Source: Actinomycetes bacterium (lineage in GTDB: Bacteria; Actinomycetota; Acidimicrobiia; Acidimicrobiales; Ilumatobacteraceae). Taken from it: a stretch of 64,000 nucleotides of DNA. Made by a program: the position numbers and the translations under genes. Below the pieces are notes generated by a model. The model was not told the DNA's origin and did not search any database. It worked only from the letters and a program-made list of their open reading frames with translations. Positions 5,086-22,423 of the stretch are shown here, piece by piece. Position 1 is the stretch's first letter; the number at the start of each line of letters is the position of its first letter. The DNA is taken from assembly GCA_027491335.1 (NCBI GenBank), contig JAIXWJ010000074.1, positions 62,001-126,000 of the forward strand. The letters run 5' to 3'.

Positions 5086-6156
5086 ATGGACGAGACACCC
5101 TCTTTGGACGCCATCGGTGGCTGGCCCGCATTGTTGTCGTCTTTGCTCGAACGCAACGATCTTCCCGCCAGTCACGCTCGCGCGGCCATGACCACGATTC
5201 TCGAGGGTGACGCGACGGCGGCGCAGTTGATCGGATTCATCGTGGCGCTGCGCGCCAAGGGCGAGACGCCCGAGGAGTTGTCCGGACTGTTGGACGCGGT
5301 GTTGGACGCCGCCACCATCGTGCCGCTCGAGGATTCGGTGCGCGAACGAGCCATCGACATCGTCGGCACCGGTGGTGATCGCAGTCATTCGGTGAACGTC
5401 AGCACCATGTCGGCCATCGTGGTGGCCGGTGCGGGGGTGCCGGTGTGCAAACACGGCGCGCGTGCCGCGTCGTCGCAATGCGGAACGGCCGACGTGTTGG
5501 AGGCCCTCGGAGTGGTGGTGGAATTGTCGCCCGAGGGCGTGAAGCGTTGCGTCGAACGCGTGGGCATGGGGTTCTGCCTGGCGGCGCGCTACCACCCGGC
5601 CTTTCGTTTCGCCGCGCCGGCCCGACGCGAGATCGGGATTCCCACCGTGTTCAACCTGCTCGGACCGATGGCCAATCCCGGTCGTGTGAGGCGCCAACTC
5701 ATTGGTGTGGCCAACCCGTTGGTGGCCGATCGCATGTTGGCGTCGTTGCGTCTGCACGGGTCGGTGTCGTCGTGGGTGGTTCACGGCGGAGGTCTGGACG
5801 AATTGACGACCACGGGCACGTCCACCGTCCTCGAGTTGCGCGGGGGAGCGGTGCGCAGTTTCGTCGTGGATCCGGTGTCGCTCGGATTGGCTCCGGCGAT
5901 CATGGACGAGTTGGTCGGCGGCACGCCCGATCACAACGCCGATGTCGTGCGCCGACTACTCGACGGTGAGCAAGGTCCCGTGCGCAACATCGTGTTGCTG
6001 AACGCCGCCGCTGGTCTGATGGTGGCCGACGCGGTCACCAGCTTGGAGGACGGTCTACGGCGCGCGGCGGAGTCGATCGATTCCGGTGCGGCGCGATCGG
6101 TGCTGGAGGGCCTGGTCGCCGAGTCTCGCGCTGCTCTGGCCGACTGTGGTGCGTGA
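5086..6156 (+). CDS. trpD: Anthranilate phosphoribosyltransferase
   Basis: 356-residue enzyme of tryptophan synthesis that joins anthranilate to PRPP. The family landmarks are an N-terminal helical domain (LIGFIVALRAKGETPEEL), the PRPP-binding DIVGTGGDRSHSVNVST, VCKHGARAASSQCGTADVLEALG, FNLLGPMANP, and VVHGGGLDEL with a TTTGTSTV block. Its length matches the family. It is isolated from other trp genes here. The ATG at 5086 has a TAGCCT box 9 bases upstream and no clear ribosome-binding site, suggesting leaderless translation. Its 3' end overlaps the start of the homoserine kinase gene. Confidence 0.96.
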   Translation: MDETPSLDAIGGWPALLSSLLERNDLPASHARAAMTTILEGDATAAQLIGFIVALRAKGETPEELSGLLDAVLDAATIVPLEDSVRERAIDIVGTGGDRSHSVNVSTMSAIVVAGAGVPVCKHGARAASSQCGTADVLEALGVVVELSPEGVKRCVERVGMGFCLAARYHPAFRFAAPARREIGIPTVFNLLGPMANPGRVRRQLIGVANPLVADRMLASLRLHGSVSSWVVHGGGLDELTTTGTSTVLELRGGAVRSFVVDPVSLGLAPAIMDELVGGTPDHNADVVRRLLDGEQGPVRNIVLLNAAAGLMVADAVTSLEDGLRRAAESIDSGAARSVLEGLVAESRAALADCGA

Positions 6157-17797: not shown

Positions 17798-18751
17798 TCA
17801 GCGTGGGCCGGACAACAGGCCGCGCAGTCGCGCGTCGGCCGACGGCCGGGCACCGATGTGCTCGATCACCCATGCCGACACCCGGGTGGCGAAGCGGGCG
17901 GCATCGATCGGTGAACCGGATTCCAGATAGTGCGAAAGGAACGCACCGGCGAACGAGTCCCCGGCGCCGGTGGCATCGACGAGGTTGTTGGTGGCCGGAG
18001 GAATGTGGGTGCTCGAGCGACCATCATGAACGAGGGCGCCATCGGCGTCGAGCTTCAACACGATGAGGGCATCGGGGAAGATCTTGGTGAGGCCCTCGGC
18101 GATGGCCTCGGTGGAGGTCTCGCCGGTGAGAACCTGACCTTCTTCCTTGTTGGGCAGAACCACGTCGAAGTCGAGGTCGGCGCACGCGGCGAGGAACGCC
18201 GGCACGCCCATCTCCATGATCATCTGGAACGAGCCGGGATCGAAGGAAACCGTCGCGCCACTCGCGCGAGCGGTGCGCGCGGCGGCACGCGCGGCCGAAC
18301 GAGGGGGATCGGTGAAGAACGACCACGCGGTGAGATGAAGGTGTCGCGCCGACGAGATGGCGTCGGTGGGCAACTCCGAGGGCATGAGATAGAAGTCGGC
18401 GCCGTGTCCGGACACCATCGAACGCTGTCCGGTGTGATCGACGAAGACGGCCACCGATCCGGTGGAATGTGCCTCGGTCTCCACGAGGTGCGCCACCACG
18501 CGCTCTCGTTCGAGGTCTTCCTGGGCGAGCTGGCCGAAGCGGTCGCGTCCGATCTTGCCGACGAATCGCGTGGGAGTTCCGCAACGACTGGCCCACACGG
18601 CCACGTTGGCCGCGCTGCCACCGGGTGTGAGCATGACCTCGCCGAATGTGTCGCCGCCACGCAACAACTCGCTGTTCGTGCGGATGAGGACGTCCCATGC
18701 GAAGTCGCCCAGCACGCACAAGGGCGGAGACGTGACACCGTGTTCGGACAC
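17798..18751 (-). CDS. PfkB-family carbohydrate/nucleoside kinase
   Basis: 317-residue ribokinase-like sugar or nucleoside kinase. It opens with VLGDFAWDVLIRTN, carries the substrate-site GGSAANVAVWASRCG, and near the C-terminus the PfkB signature NNLVDATGAGDSFAGAF with the catalytic Asp. The substrate cannot be fixed; adenosine or a sugar are both possible. The GTG at 18751 was chosen because the first beta strand follows directly; the longer ORF is an antisense extension into the transporter gene. It forms an operon with the SDR and is divergent from the EamA transporter. Confidence 0.88.
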   Translation of the reverse strand: MSEHGVTSPPLCVLGDFAWDVLIRTNSELLRGGDTFGEVMLTPGGSAANVAVWASRCGTPTRFVGKIGRDRFGQLAQEDLERERVVAHLVETEAHSTGSVAVFVDHTGQRSMVSGHGADFYLMPSELPTDAISSARHLHLTAWSFFTDPPRSAARAAARTARASGATVSFDPGSFQMIMEMGVPAFLAACADLDFDVVLPNKEEGQVLTGETSTEAIAEGLTKIFPDALIVLKLDADGALVHDGRSSTHIPPATNNLVDATGAGDSFAGAFLSHYLESGSPIDAARFATRVSAWVIEHIGARPSADARLRGLLSGPR

Positions 18752-18811
18752 GATGCGTACGGTATCGGCGGGGATTCTCCGCGCCACGTGACCGTGGGCG
18801 AGAATGAACTC

Positions 18812-19720
18812 ATGTCTCGTTCGTTCGGTCGCTTCACCCTGCTGTCGCTGGCGGCGGTCTGGGTGATCTGGGGATCGACTTATCTGGCCATCAAGATCGG
18901 TTTGGAGACTCTGCCTCCGTTCTTCATGCAGGGCTGCCGTTTCGTCGTGGCCGCCGCGGTGATGGCCATCTTCCTGCGAACGCGCGGCCATGCCTGGCCG
19001 ACGCGTCGCCAAATGCGCAACGCGTCGATGATCGGCGTGATGCTGCTCATCGGAGGTCTCGGCATGGTGACGTTGGCCGAGGATCGCGGAGTGGACTCCG
19101 GGCTGGTGGCGACGATCATCGCGATCCAGCCCATGATGATGGCGATGTGGGGTGGTCTCTGGAAGTCCTGGCCCAATCGAATGCAGTGGGTCGGAATGTT
19201 CATCGGTATGGGAGGCGTCGCCATTCTCGTGGCCGACGACGGCTTGTCCGGCTCGTGGAGCGGTGTGTCGTTGGTGTTCGTCGCCTGCGTGTCATGGAGT
19301 TTCGGGTCGGCGCTCAGTCGACGGATCGACATGCCGGACGGACCCATGACGACGACCTTCGAAATGGCCGCCGCGGCGGTGGCGTTCATGGTTTTGTCGT
19401 TCGTGTCGGGCGAGGGGATCGAGGCCCCGAGCTTGCGCAGTGGTTTGGCGGTCGCGTATCTGGTGGTGTTCGGTTCGATCGTGGCCTTCTCGGCATTCAC
19501 GTATCTCATCTCCAACGTCAGTGGTCCACTCGCGATGAGTTATGCCTACGTCAATCCGGCCATCGCGGTGCTGCTCGGGGTGGTGTTCAGCGACGAATCG
19601 GTGTCGGCCAACATGGCGATGGCGCTCCCGGTGATTCTGGTCGGGGTGGCCATCGTCACGAACGCGTCCCGGCCGTCCACCGAGACCACCCGCGAGGATG
19701 CGTCTAGCGTGACGTCATGA
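18812..19720 (+). CDS. EamA/DMT-family transporter
   Basis: 302-residue integral membrane protein with ten predicted hydrophobic helices in two homologous halves, each with the EamA pattern (VWVIWGSTYLAIKIGLETLP at the start; VFVACVSWSFGSALSRR beginning the second half; GPLAMSYAYVNPAIAVLLG near the end). These proteins export or import small metabolites; the substrate is unknown. The ATG at 18812 starts at the first helix. The last four bases ATGA overlap the start of the selenocysteine candidate gene, so they are probably co-transcribed. Confidence 0.9.
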   Translation: MSRSFGRFTLLSLAAVWVIWGSTYLAIKIGLETLPPFFMQGCRFVVAAAVMAIFLRTRGHAWPTRRQMRNASMIGVMLLIGGLGMVTLAEDRGVDSGLVATIIAIQPMMMAMWGGLWKSWPNRMQWVGMFIGMGGVAILVADDGLSGSWSGVSLVFVACVSWSFGSALSRRIDMPDGPMTTTFEMAAAAVAFMVLSFVSGEGIEAPSLRSGLAVAYLVVFGSIVAFSAFTYLISNVSGPLAMSYAYVNPAIAVLLGVVFSDESVSANMAMALPVILVGVAIVTNASRPSTETTREDASSVTS

Positions 19721-20256
19721 GTCGGATGCGCACGTTCTCGATGGCCGTGTCGGTCGTCGTGGCGATGACCGGCTTCTCCATGATGGGTGCCGGATGCGGC
19801 TCGGATCCCGTCGACTCGGGTGCCACCTCCGACATCACATCGTCCGACAACACATCGACGGGGTCCATCTCGAGCGAGTTGTTGATCGAGCCGACCGTGG
19901 ATCTCGTTGCGTCGGGACGTCCGGTGGTGTTGTGGTTCTGGGCGCCCGGTTGAGCGCAGTGCAACGTCGAAGCCCCCTCGGTCGAGGAGGCCCACACCAC
20001 GTACGGCGAGTCGGTCGACTTCTACGGAGTCGCATGGAACGGATCCGACGAGTACATGCTCGACTTCATCTCCCGTCATGGGTTGTCGTTCCCCAGCCTG
20101 CGCGACAACGCGGGTGACGTCTTCGCTCGTTACGACGTTCCTTTCCAGCCGGCTTGGGTGTTTATCGCCGCAAACGGAGATGTCACCAGAGTCCAGGGAA
20201 GTCTGGACGCGGAGTCACTCGAGTCGTTGATCGACGACGTGTTGGCGACGGCCTGA
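19717..20256 (+). CDS. Predicted selenocysteine-containing thioredoxin-fold lipoprotein (in-frame TGA)
   Basis: 179 residues if TGA at 19951-19953 is read as selenocysteine. An N-terminal signal with candidate lipobox MGAGC (Cys27) is followed by a Ser/Thr-rich linker and a thioredoxin fold resembling MPT53/DsbF: VVLWFWAPG, then TGA, then AQCNVEAPS; later FYGVAWNGSDEYM, FARYDVPFQPAWVF with the cis-Pro, and DVTRVQG. The TGA (residue 79) stands exactly at the first Cys of the CxxC motif, giving U-A-Q-C. Both halves are in one frame with equal quality, against random decay. A hairpin follows the TGA. Without recoding the product would be a 78-residue stub. selA, selB, selC and selD are not in the window. 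Confidence 0.8.
19951..19991 (+). promoter_or_regulatory. Candidate bacterial SECIS element with recoded TGA
   Basis: The TGA at 19951 is followed by an 8-base arm GCCCCCTC (19972-19979), loop GGTC (19980-19983) and arm GAGGAGGC (19984-19991), with a single C-A mismatch. The apical GGTC (GGUC in RNA) has G in its first two positions, as in E. coli fdhF, and begins 26 bases after the TGA, within the usual bacterial range. Confidence 0.65.
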
Positions 20257-21291
20257 TCAACCGAGTCGCGGACGAATCGAGCCGATGGCTCGCAAGGTTT
20301 CGCCGAAGCGTTCGTCCAGCGCCGGGTCGTCGGGCGGTTGAATCAGGAGTCCGTCCACGAGGCCCGAGTACCACTGTTCGAGAATGGCGGGGAGTTCGTC
20401 CCACGTTCCGGTGGGTAGCACGGTGTCCAAGACCTCGTCGGTCATGAGAGAGCCGAGCGAACCCCAATCCCCGTTGCGGGTCATGGTGCGAAGGCGGGGT
20501 CCGAGCTCGGGCCACCCGAACAATTCGAGGGAACGTTGATAGGCGGGCGTCGAGTACAAGAACGCCAACACCGCGCGCTGGGCCTCGCGACTGCGGTCGA
20601 CCTCGGCCGAGGTGGGGCCGGTGATGAGCGGTGAGGCGGTGATGATTCGAGGTGACGTGCCGCGTCGCGCGCTCTCGATTCCGGATTCGAGTGCGGGCAT
20701 CGCCAACTCGCGAACGAATCGCGGGTGCGAGTTCGTCGGATGCGTCACGAACCAATCGGCACAGCGACCGGCCAGTTCGATGGCCCCACGATTCACGCCG
20801 CCGAGCAGGATCGTCGGAGGATCGTGGGGGAGGGGCCCCGGGTTGAAGAACGGCTGAAGCCGGTCGAGTGTGTACGAGTCCGTGCGAACGTTCAGGGGCG
20901 AGCCGTCGGTGAAGGACTTCCAGATCGCGCGCACGACCGTGACGTAGTCCTCCATTCGTCGCAACGGATCGGTCCATGCGACGCCGAAGCGTCCTTCGAT
21001 GTTTTGGCGAATCTGCGTGGCCAATCCGAGGTCGAATCGACCGCCGCCGGCGGCGGAGGCATCCCACGCTTGAAGTGCCAACAACATGGGGCTGCGGGGG
21101 AAGGCCAAGGTCAGGCTGGTCTGCACGCGCAAGCGTCCGGTGGACATGAGGGCCAGCAACGACACCGCCATGGAGTCGTGCACCGTCTCGGGCACGTGAA
21201 GAACGTCGAAGCCCAGCGCTTCGACCCGCCTCGCGTACGCCCCAACCTCGGTCAGCGGCACGCGGTCGCTCATTCCGGCGATCAGCAGCAT
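20257..21291 (-). CDS. LLM-class flavin-dependent oxidoreductase (F420-type)
   Basis: 344-residue TIM-barrel enzyme of the luciferase-like monooxygenase family; in actinobacteria many use coenzyme F420. Blocks: YARRVEALGFDVLHVPETVHD, LTLAFPRSPMLLALQAWD, GRFDLGLATQIRQNIEGRFG and PPTILLGGVNRGAIELAGR, matching the TIGR03617-like group. The substrate is unknown. The ATG at 21291 is the first in frame. It is convergent with the selenocysteine candidate with no spacer, and divergent from the LysM-NlpC/P60 gene across 163 bases. Confidence 0.88.
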   Translation of the reverse strand: MLLIAGMSDRVPLTEVGAYARRVEALGFDVLHVPETVHDSMAVSLLALMSTGRLRVQTSLTLAFPRSPMLLALQAWDASAAGGGRFDLGLATQIRQNIEGRFGVAWTDPLRRMEDYVTVVRAIWKSFTDGSPLNVRTDSYTLDRLQPFFNPGPLPHDPPTILLGGVNRGAIELAGRCADWFVTHPTNSHPRFVRELAMPALESGIESARRGTSPRIITASPLITGPTSAEVDRSREAQRAVLAFLYSTPAYQRSLELFGWPELGPRLRTMTRNGDWGSLGSLMTDEVLDTVLPTGTWDELPAILEQWYSGLVDGLLIQPPDDPALDERFGETLRAIGSIRPRLG

Positions 21292-21454: not shown

Positions 21455-22423
21455 GTGAAACGGAAGATGACTCGACTCGGACGCGCGGCACTGTTGTCGT
21501 TGTCGTCGGCGGTGGCTCTCGGTTTCGTCGGTGTCCCCGGAGCGATGGCCCAGAGTGGTCGTGGTTCGAACTCCTCCTCATCATCGGCGACGTCCTCGAT
21601 GGGTCTCACCTACGTGGTGGTCAACAACGACTCCCTCAGTCGCATCGCCTCGCGAATCAATGTGCCGATCAACGATTTGTTGGCGGTCAACGGGTTCGTT
21701 CGCTCGAGCGTGATCGTTCCCGGTCAGGTGATCAAGCTCCCCGACACCGCATCGAATGCACCGGCGAATCAGACCTCGGCCGCGTCCGTCGCCTCCTCCA
21801 GCGTCTCCGCGAGCGCCACCTCGTCGTCGGTGGCGGGCCCGACCTACGTGGTGCAACGCAACGATTCGCTCTCGTTGATCGCATCGAAGAACAAGGTGTC
21901 GCTGAGCGCGCTTTTGTCCGCCAACAAGTTCACCCGCACGAGCGTCATCGTCCCCGGACAGGTCATCAAGTTGCCCGCGAGTGCATCGGTCATGAATGCG
22001 TCGTCGGTGTCGGGGTCGTCGGCGTCGGGGTCGGCAAACACGTCGACACCCACGAAGTTGCAACAGGTCCTCGACTTCGCTCACGCCCAGGTGGGCAAGC
22101 CGTACAAGTTCGCCGCGGCGGGCCCCGTCAGTTACGACTGCTCCGGTTTGACCAAGGCCAGCTTGGCCATCGCCGGTGTGAAGTTGCCGCATCAGAGCCT
22201 CGCTCAATCGAAGTTGGGAACGGCCATCGACTGGAAGACCACTCCCATTCAGGCCGGCGACTTGGTCTTCACTTTCTCCAGCAAGAGCCCGACGGTGATC
22301 AGTCACGTGGGCATCGCGATCAGCTCGACGCATTGGATCGAGGCTCCCAACACCGGTTCGGTCGTGCGCATCGGCAAGTTGCCCTCCAGCACGCGCATTC
22401 AGGCCGTGCGACGCTTCCTCTGA
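21455..22423 (+). CDS. Secreted LysM-NlpC/P60 peptidoglycan endopeptidase
   Basis: 322-residue cell-wall hydrolase. A signal peptide (AALLSLSSAVALGFVGVPGAMAQ) is followed by two LysM modules (about residues 51-95 and 129-173, each ending SVIVPGQVIKLP) separated by Ser/Ala-rich linkers, then an NlpC/P60 domain with catalytic Cys in YDCSGLTKAS, His in ISHVGIAI and a third polar site in HWIEAP. It probably cleaves peptide stems during growth or division. The start is GTG 21455; the ATG at 21467 also leaves a full signal peptide. The upstream region was checked for a c-di-AMP riboswitch and none was convincing. Confidence 0.92.
   Translation: MKRKMTRLGRAALLSLSSAVALGFVGVPGAMAQSGRGSNSSSSSATSSMGLTYVVVNNDSLSRIASRINVPINDLLAVNGFVRSSVIVPGQVIKLPDTASNAPANQTSAASVASSSVSASATSSSVAGPTYVVQRNDSLSLIASKNKVSLSALLSANKFTRTSVIVPGQVIKLPASASVMNASSVSGSSASGSANTSTPTKLQQVLDFAHAQVGKPYKFAAAGPVSYDCSGLTKASLAIAGVKLPHQSLAQSKLGTAIDWKTTPIQAGDLVFTFSSKSPTVISHVGIAISSTHWIEAPNTGSVVRIGKLPSSTRIQAVRRFL

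Follow-up and report, generated by a model that had tools for sequence, protein, structure and literature searches.

Comparative evidence for a predicted selenocysteine in a putatively exported thioredoxin-fold protein of Ilumatobacteraceae

A TGA codon interrupts a thioredoxin-like gene in the window (the whole 64,000-nt stretch of DNA analysed), and the question it raises is whether this codon is read as selenocysteine (Sec), acts as a stop, or is an error. One frame ran from ATG 19717 to the TGA at 20254-20256, with the TGA at 19951-19953 as its sole internal stop, placed where the thioredoxin CxxC has its first Cys (Table 1). Translation with this TGA as Sec gave 179 aa with the motif W-F-W-A-P-G-U-A-Q-C and a later Q-P, in which we take Pro145 to have the cis-Pro role. 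The frame, its coordinates, the single internal TGA and both motifs were recomputed from the sequence and agreed with the initial annotation. Residues 3' of the TGA were conserved in relatives (alignment A2). The genome of the window comprised 2.52 Mb in 76 contigs and was 94.6% complete; a search of this incomplete genome with RF00023 alone gave no tmRNA match at the cut-off of that family.

Table 1. Positions and strands of the features discussed, in window coordinates.
Feature	Position	Strand	Basis or remark
EamA-family transporter ORF, upstream	17930..19720	+	4-nt overlap (ATGA) between its stop and the Sec-gene ATG
TlpA/ResA/DsbF-like thioredoxin-fold protein, predicted Sec	19717..20256	+	179 aa, Sec at residue 79
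Predicted export signal ending GAGC (C27), weak lipobox-like	19717..19797	+	Sequence
In-frame TGA, predicted Sec (U79), opens UxxC	19951..19953	+	TGA 64, Cys 26 among 90 loci
C82, partner Cys in U-A-Q-C	19960..19962	+	Invariant in the 17 rows of alignment A2
bSECIS hairpin (predicted)	19972..19991	+	Stem 19972-19979/19984-19991; letter conservation, covariation
Apical loop GGUC, +27..+30 after UGA	19980..19983	+	61/64 Sec loci, 0/26 Cys loci
Pro145 at the presumed thioredoxin cis-Pro place (Q-P)	20149..20151	+	No variation at Q144 or P145 across the 17 A2 rows
Luciferase-like monooxygenase, convergent, downstream	20257..21291	-	Outside the unit

A homologue was present in 285/298 genomes of the order, with one in-frame TGA in many rows. 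Among the 90 best-matching loci (30 + 60 by rank, except for one TGA row, G054:C26, taken out of rank), the codon at residue 79 was TGA in 64, TGC in 18 and TGT in 8, and the place at which the initial annotation had expected Cys in homologues held no other sense codon. Two of the 26 Cys loci (L023 and L110) were the same copy, leaving 25 distinct Cys copies, and the Sec copy of L023 itself was excluded from the 64 Sec loci and used in the tree only. Reading continued for 89-104 residues past the TGA in 63/64 Sec loci, the exception being L098, which had a second TGA. The two in-frame TGAs of L098 (738-782, minus strand) formed U-P-F-U, a UxxU active site.

The strict DNA pattern W-F-W-[AS]-P-x-TGA-x-x-C was found in 101/298 genomes of the order, and the control pattern with TAA or TAG for TGA in 0/298. 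Across the phylum the TGA pattern occurred in 29/396 genomes, 18 of them outside the order, and a reversed-pattern control gave 1 match (G429); matches in the order and the phylum were counted as pattern hits, putative homologues of the window gene, and included W-F-W-A-P-H-U sequences. The family of the window had the pattern in 10/12 genomes, and the other two (G102 and G288) were also without selB at E <= 1e-70. Five matches each were recorded in G139 and G277 and four in G214, and at least two in 41/101 genomes (counted by eye from the table). The W-F-W-A-P-H-U motif, possibly marking a separate group of Sec thioredoxins, occurred as paired copies 0.6-1.2 kb apart in three genomes (G262:C39:220890 and 222096; G281:C5:36135 and 37282; G150:C2:42052 and 42668).

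These counts bear on whether the TGA is a damaged Cys codon (TGC or TGT), in a pseudogene or through a sequencing error. A single base separates TGA from either Cys codon, and the gene was examined in the assembly of one fragmented genome (76 contigs). Nevertheless, the same TGA was present in 64 loci from many genera, with the frame running on in all but one of them, the motif with TAA or TAG was absent from all 298 genomes, and a hairpin and selB accompanied the TGA, which leaves an error very improbable.

A single tree was built from 65 Sec and 50 Cys rows over 117 columns (47/112 inner branches open), and 4 Sec/Cys changes were counted in it, gain and loss not being told apart. Tandem copies were found in G211 (G211:C154; L217 4900-6240), one with TGA and a GGTC loop and the other with TGC and CGTC. 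Cys copy L110 of G211 fell within a 12-row group that was otherwise Sec-only and contained the window (support 99), a placement that fits a putative joint loss of Sec and hairpin. Differences 3' of the TGA between the window and its nearest relative were distributed 14/15/14 over the three codon positions, and those with five other relatives ranged from 14/14/30 to 19/18/21. Their concentration at third positions over the six relatives appeared only partial, and this mixed result was not used as evidence.

The initial annotation had put forward, from a single sequence, a hairpin with a GGTC loop 3' of the TGA; its position was correct, and across relatives it was both conserved and covarying. 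Counted from the base after UGA, the pairs in the window were G19-C38, C20-G37, C21-G36, C23-G34, C24-G33, U25-A32 and C26-G31, with a mismatch at C22/A35. In the bSECIS model, as given in the accessible text of PMC13188914, the apical loop is small, carries G at one of its first two positions and lies 16-37 nt downstream of the UGA; the window hairpin agreed with it (GGUC loop, separated from the UGA by 26 nt). Folded as a single sequence, the window hairpin was not beyond chance (z +1.18; 183/200 shuffles at least as good), and Rfam gave no family at E <= 1 in 19600-20400. What raised the hairpin above chance was the comparison among loci, namely the TGA or Cys codon, the GGTC letters and the TAA/TAG (TAR) control.

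GGTC stood at +27..+30, ungapped, in 61/64 Sec loci vs. 0/26 Cys loci, and 3/64 Sec loci were without these exact letters; anywhere in +15..+45, it was present in 62/64 Sec and 3/26 Cys loci. The stem was paired in 81.5% of cells across Sec loci. With identical rows counted once (60 distinct of 64), the covariation score was 0.354 vs. a shuffled mean of 0.152 (0/500 as high) and 0.037-0.126 in slid versions, and double-changed cells numbered 54 vs. 15.7 in shuffles (0/500 as high). Doubly changed pairs numbered 6, a count within reach of the shuffles (mean 4.9; 61/500 as high). Pair 22/35 was formed in just 14/60 distinct sequences, and pairs 24-33 and 25-32 mostly switched between C-G/U-A and U-A/G-C. 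The Val codon of the loop (+10) was GTC in 64/64, against 258/619 for Val codons elsewhere in these genes. The minimum-energy fold had a GGUC tetraloop at +27 in 50/64 Sec loci and 0/26 Cys loci, and did not have it in the remaining 14/64 Sec loci.

The same letters bear on whether the UGA is a true stop, which would leave a 78-residue peptide and a leftover remainder. The terminator of the gene itself is also TGA; however, a thioredoxin ending just before its active site would be without its redox pair, the residues after the TGA were conserved, and the loop letters were kept with TGA and not with Cys. A true stop is as improbable as an error.

All of selA, selB, selC and selD, the genes by which the initial annotation proposed to judge a Sec reading, were found in the genome of the window. 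selA and selB were adjacent on contig C3 (NCBIfam 395.9 and 303.7 bits, respectively), with the winged-helix domain SelB-wing_3 in SelB. selC was in C46 (Rfam tRNA-Sec, 67 bits with a cut-off of 47; ARAGORN tRNA-SeC, anticodon tca), and selD in C62 (322.4 bits, without internal stop). Presence of selB, defined by a chosen threshold of E <= 1e-70 (164 genomes; 163 by the search program's own cut-off), was recorded in 98/101 carriers of the TGA pattern vs. 66/197 other genomes (Fisher p 1.3e-29, kinship ignored). The carriers without a match at this threshold were G099 (93% complete), G170 (83%) and G218 (76%), and G099 weighs against a perfect link between TGA and selB because it is 93% complete. 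Nothing was found here in favour of UGA being recoded to Cys or Trp through readthrough or a changed code. Against such recoding, tRNA-Sec, SelA, SelB with its SelB-wing domain and SelD were all present, and the frame had only one TGA, at the redox position; this reading is even less probable than either a stop or an error.

The usual Sec carriers, FdhA and SelD, were not found as Sec forms in the genome of the window, since SelD and five molybdopterin oxidoreductases had no in-frame stops. FdhA or SelD was part of every selenoproteome among the genomes of 2006, according to the accessible text of PMC1794560. SECIS model R1, tuned to the family of the window gene, was run over its own genome and gave E 3.9e-11 for the window gene and 16 further hits (best 0.04), with no second clear match among the 150/2317 first-look candidates scored. 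From the 16 further hits, 11 loci were checked, and a frame open across TGA was seen in two, L196 (with GGTC at +26) and L200. Both read as arginine-rich stretches, are not known to have kin, and were judged to be chance hits. The question raised is which selenoprotein sustains the Sec machinery in the order. Tentatively, and at somewhat less than an even chance, the order (probably Acidimicrobiales) may have radiated an exported Sec TlpA/DsbF-like lipoprotein, often multicopy and with a near-invariant GGUC +27 SECIS, which in some genomes, e.g., that of the window, would keep the Sec machinery in place of Sec forms of formate dehydrogenase or SelD.

With C in place of U, the window protein matched AhpC-TSA (1.8e-10), Redoxin (2.6e-9) and Thioredoxin (3.6e-7) in Pfam, all over cut-off, AhpC-TSA (PF00578) being the best (41.3 bits, cut-off 26). 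The AlphaFold2 model had a thioredoxin fold (mean pLDDT 83.4). The closest solved structures by profile were DsbF (3ios, E 1.7e-38) and MPT53 (1lu4, 3.5e-36), and both led in Foldseek on the model too, which bore out the likeness to MPT53/DsbF first noticed in the single sequence. ResA was the best NCBIfam match, missing the NF002854 cut-off (50.9 of 170 bits). The window protein is MPT53/DsbF/ResA-like.

A secreted selenoprotein of the thioredoxin fold had been proposed at the outset. The fold stood; as to secretion, a lipoprotein anchored in the membrane seems more probable for the Sec protein than a freely secreted form, as suggested by a lipobox-like motif in 55/64 Sec loci (crude motif test). 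The motif of the window protein (GAGC, residues 24-27) was non-canonical and did not pass the same crude test, which does not score GAGC.

The EamA ORF upstream probably has its true start near 18.8 kb, judging from a 296-aa ORF in L213 (same genus), where the same 4-nt ATGA overlap was present (5295-5298). Because of this overlap, the EamA-like gene and the Sec gene are probably translated together. The context of the Sec gene is not fixed across the loci compared, since the EamA neighbour was seen in the window and L213, and homologues of one pyridine-nucleotide-disulphide oxidoreductase, identified in L215, were nearby in seven further family loci among those listed (L214, L215, L217-L221). 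This oxidoreductase is probably lipoamide dehydrogenase, because an E2 acyltransferase follows it in L215 and L214 has, further along, a lipoate ligase/synthase-like gene (Pfam). Also encoded near the Sec gene in these seven loci was a conserved protein about 137-155 aa long (L215 5964-6407, with homologues in L214 and L217-L221), the L215 copy of which had no Pfam match. Elsewhere in the window, 21455-22423 encoded a LysM + NlpC/P60 protein with serine-rich stretches.

As a whole, the window gene is very probably a genuine selenoprotein gene encoding an exported thiol/selenol-disulfide exchanger. With codon, hairpin, machinery genes and fold supported by comparison, we infer that, when a ribosome reaches UGA 19951, SelB with Sec-tRNA(Sec) would bind the hairpin just 3' (loop GGUC, 26 nt past the UGA), and Sec would go in with termination avoided. 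Once exported, the product would probably sit outside the membrane on a lipid anchor and would act as a one-domain exchanger in which Sec79 would bond the substrate (mixed bond) and Cys82 resolve it.

The direction of this putative reaction was considered about evenly divided between a reductant or repair role and oxidative folding. In the genome of the window, contig C21 (L231 1306-2902) encoded a weakly CcdA-like membrane protein (23.8 bits, below the Pfam cut-off of 27.1) adjoining a Cys TlpA-like protein; this Cys protein and the Sec protein were 31% identical (118 residues). The C21 pair is a possible partner of the Sec protein or a possible paralogous system. Sec is often the nucleophile of reducing enzymes, which speaks against an oxidant. 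Even so, action of the selenoprotein as an oxidant in extracytoplasmic folding, like mycobacterial DsbE/DsbF, and not as a reductant, comes close to an even chance without quite reaching it: DsbF and MPT53 were its nearest solved relatives, and the accessible text of PMC3853704 has M. tuberculosis DsbE and DsbF oxidatively folding reduced hirudin, with no insulin reduction. The CcdA-like gene does not discriminate between reductant and oxidant, because the same source (PMC3853704) describes the oxidants DsbE/DsbF as thought to have a DsbD-type partner.

The initial annotation knew of no such protein described in this lineage. Literature on selenocysteine in Ilumatobacter or under terms beginning with Acidimicrobi, searched at title level with the supplements of the catalogues and the source metagenome papers outside the search, gave no paper evidently on this gene. 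The kind, PF00578/cd02966 with UxxC, had been catalogued before, cd02966 presumably being the TlpA-like family. UxxC with PF00578, PF08534 or cd02966 is already listed among predicted selenoproteins (PMC9312934, PMC13188914, in their accessible parts). Its spread in the order, often in several motif copies per genome, looks little described. Gene callers that take UGA as a stop only would lose the Sec protein, in an order in which 101/298 genomes carry the motif. The results point to a lineage, as yet little studied, in which extracytoplasmic proteins would make extensive use of Sec, and they provide a natural Sec/Cys series, including the tandem pair in G211.

Among known systems, MPT53 (DsbE) and DsbF of M. 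tuberculosis are described in PMC3853704, as far as accessible, as extracytoplasmic with one thioredoxin domain, as is predicted for the window protein, but have CxxC and no Sec, whereas the window protein has UxxC. ResA/StoA, the next-best solved structures by profile and fold, have CxxC as well. The UGC-containing TlpA family (PMC13188914, accessible text) and NCBIfam NF041054 (WAxxUGC) are ResA-like with Sec and differ in their motif, UGC as opposed to UxxC in the window; 9/17 members of A2 matched NF041054 at E <= 0.001 (best 2.2e-9), and the window protein itself did not. Predicted UxxC selenoproteins named in PMC13188914 include Thiol-disulfide isomerase-like (cd02966) and Redoxin family (PF08534) proteins; compared by description, UxxC was common to these and the window protein, which matched PF08534 too. 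Representatives given in PMC13188914 include MGB1650493.1 and HEU0032618.1. The Prx-like thiol:disulfide oxidoreductase (PF00578, UxxC/UxxU) is a further predicted selenoprotein family in the accessible text of these catalogues (PMC9312934, PMC13188914), with WP_010940744.1 among its named representatives (PMC13188914) and occurrence in Geobacter, Syntrophus and Desulfotalea (PMC1794560). Compared by description, the window protein shares with this family both PF00578 and UxxC (U-A-Q-C), and its relative L098 shares UxxU.
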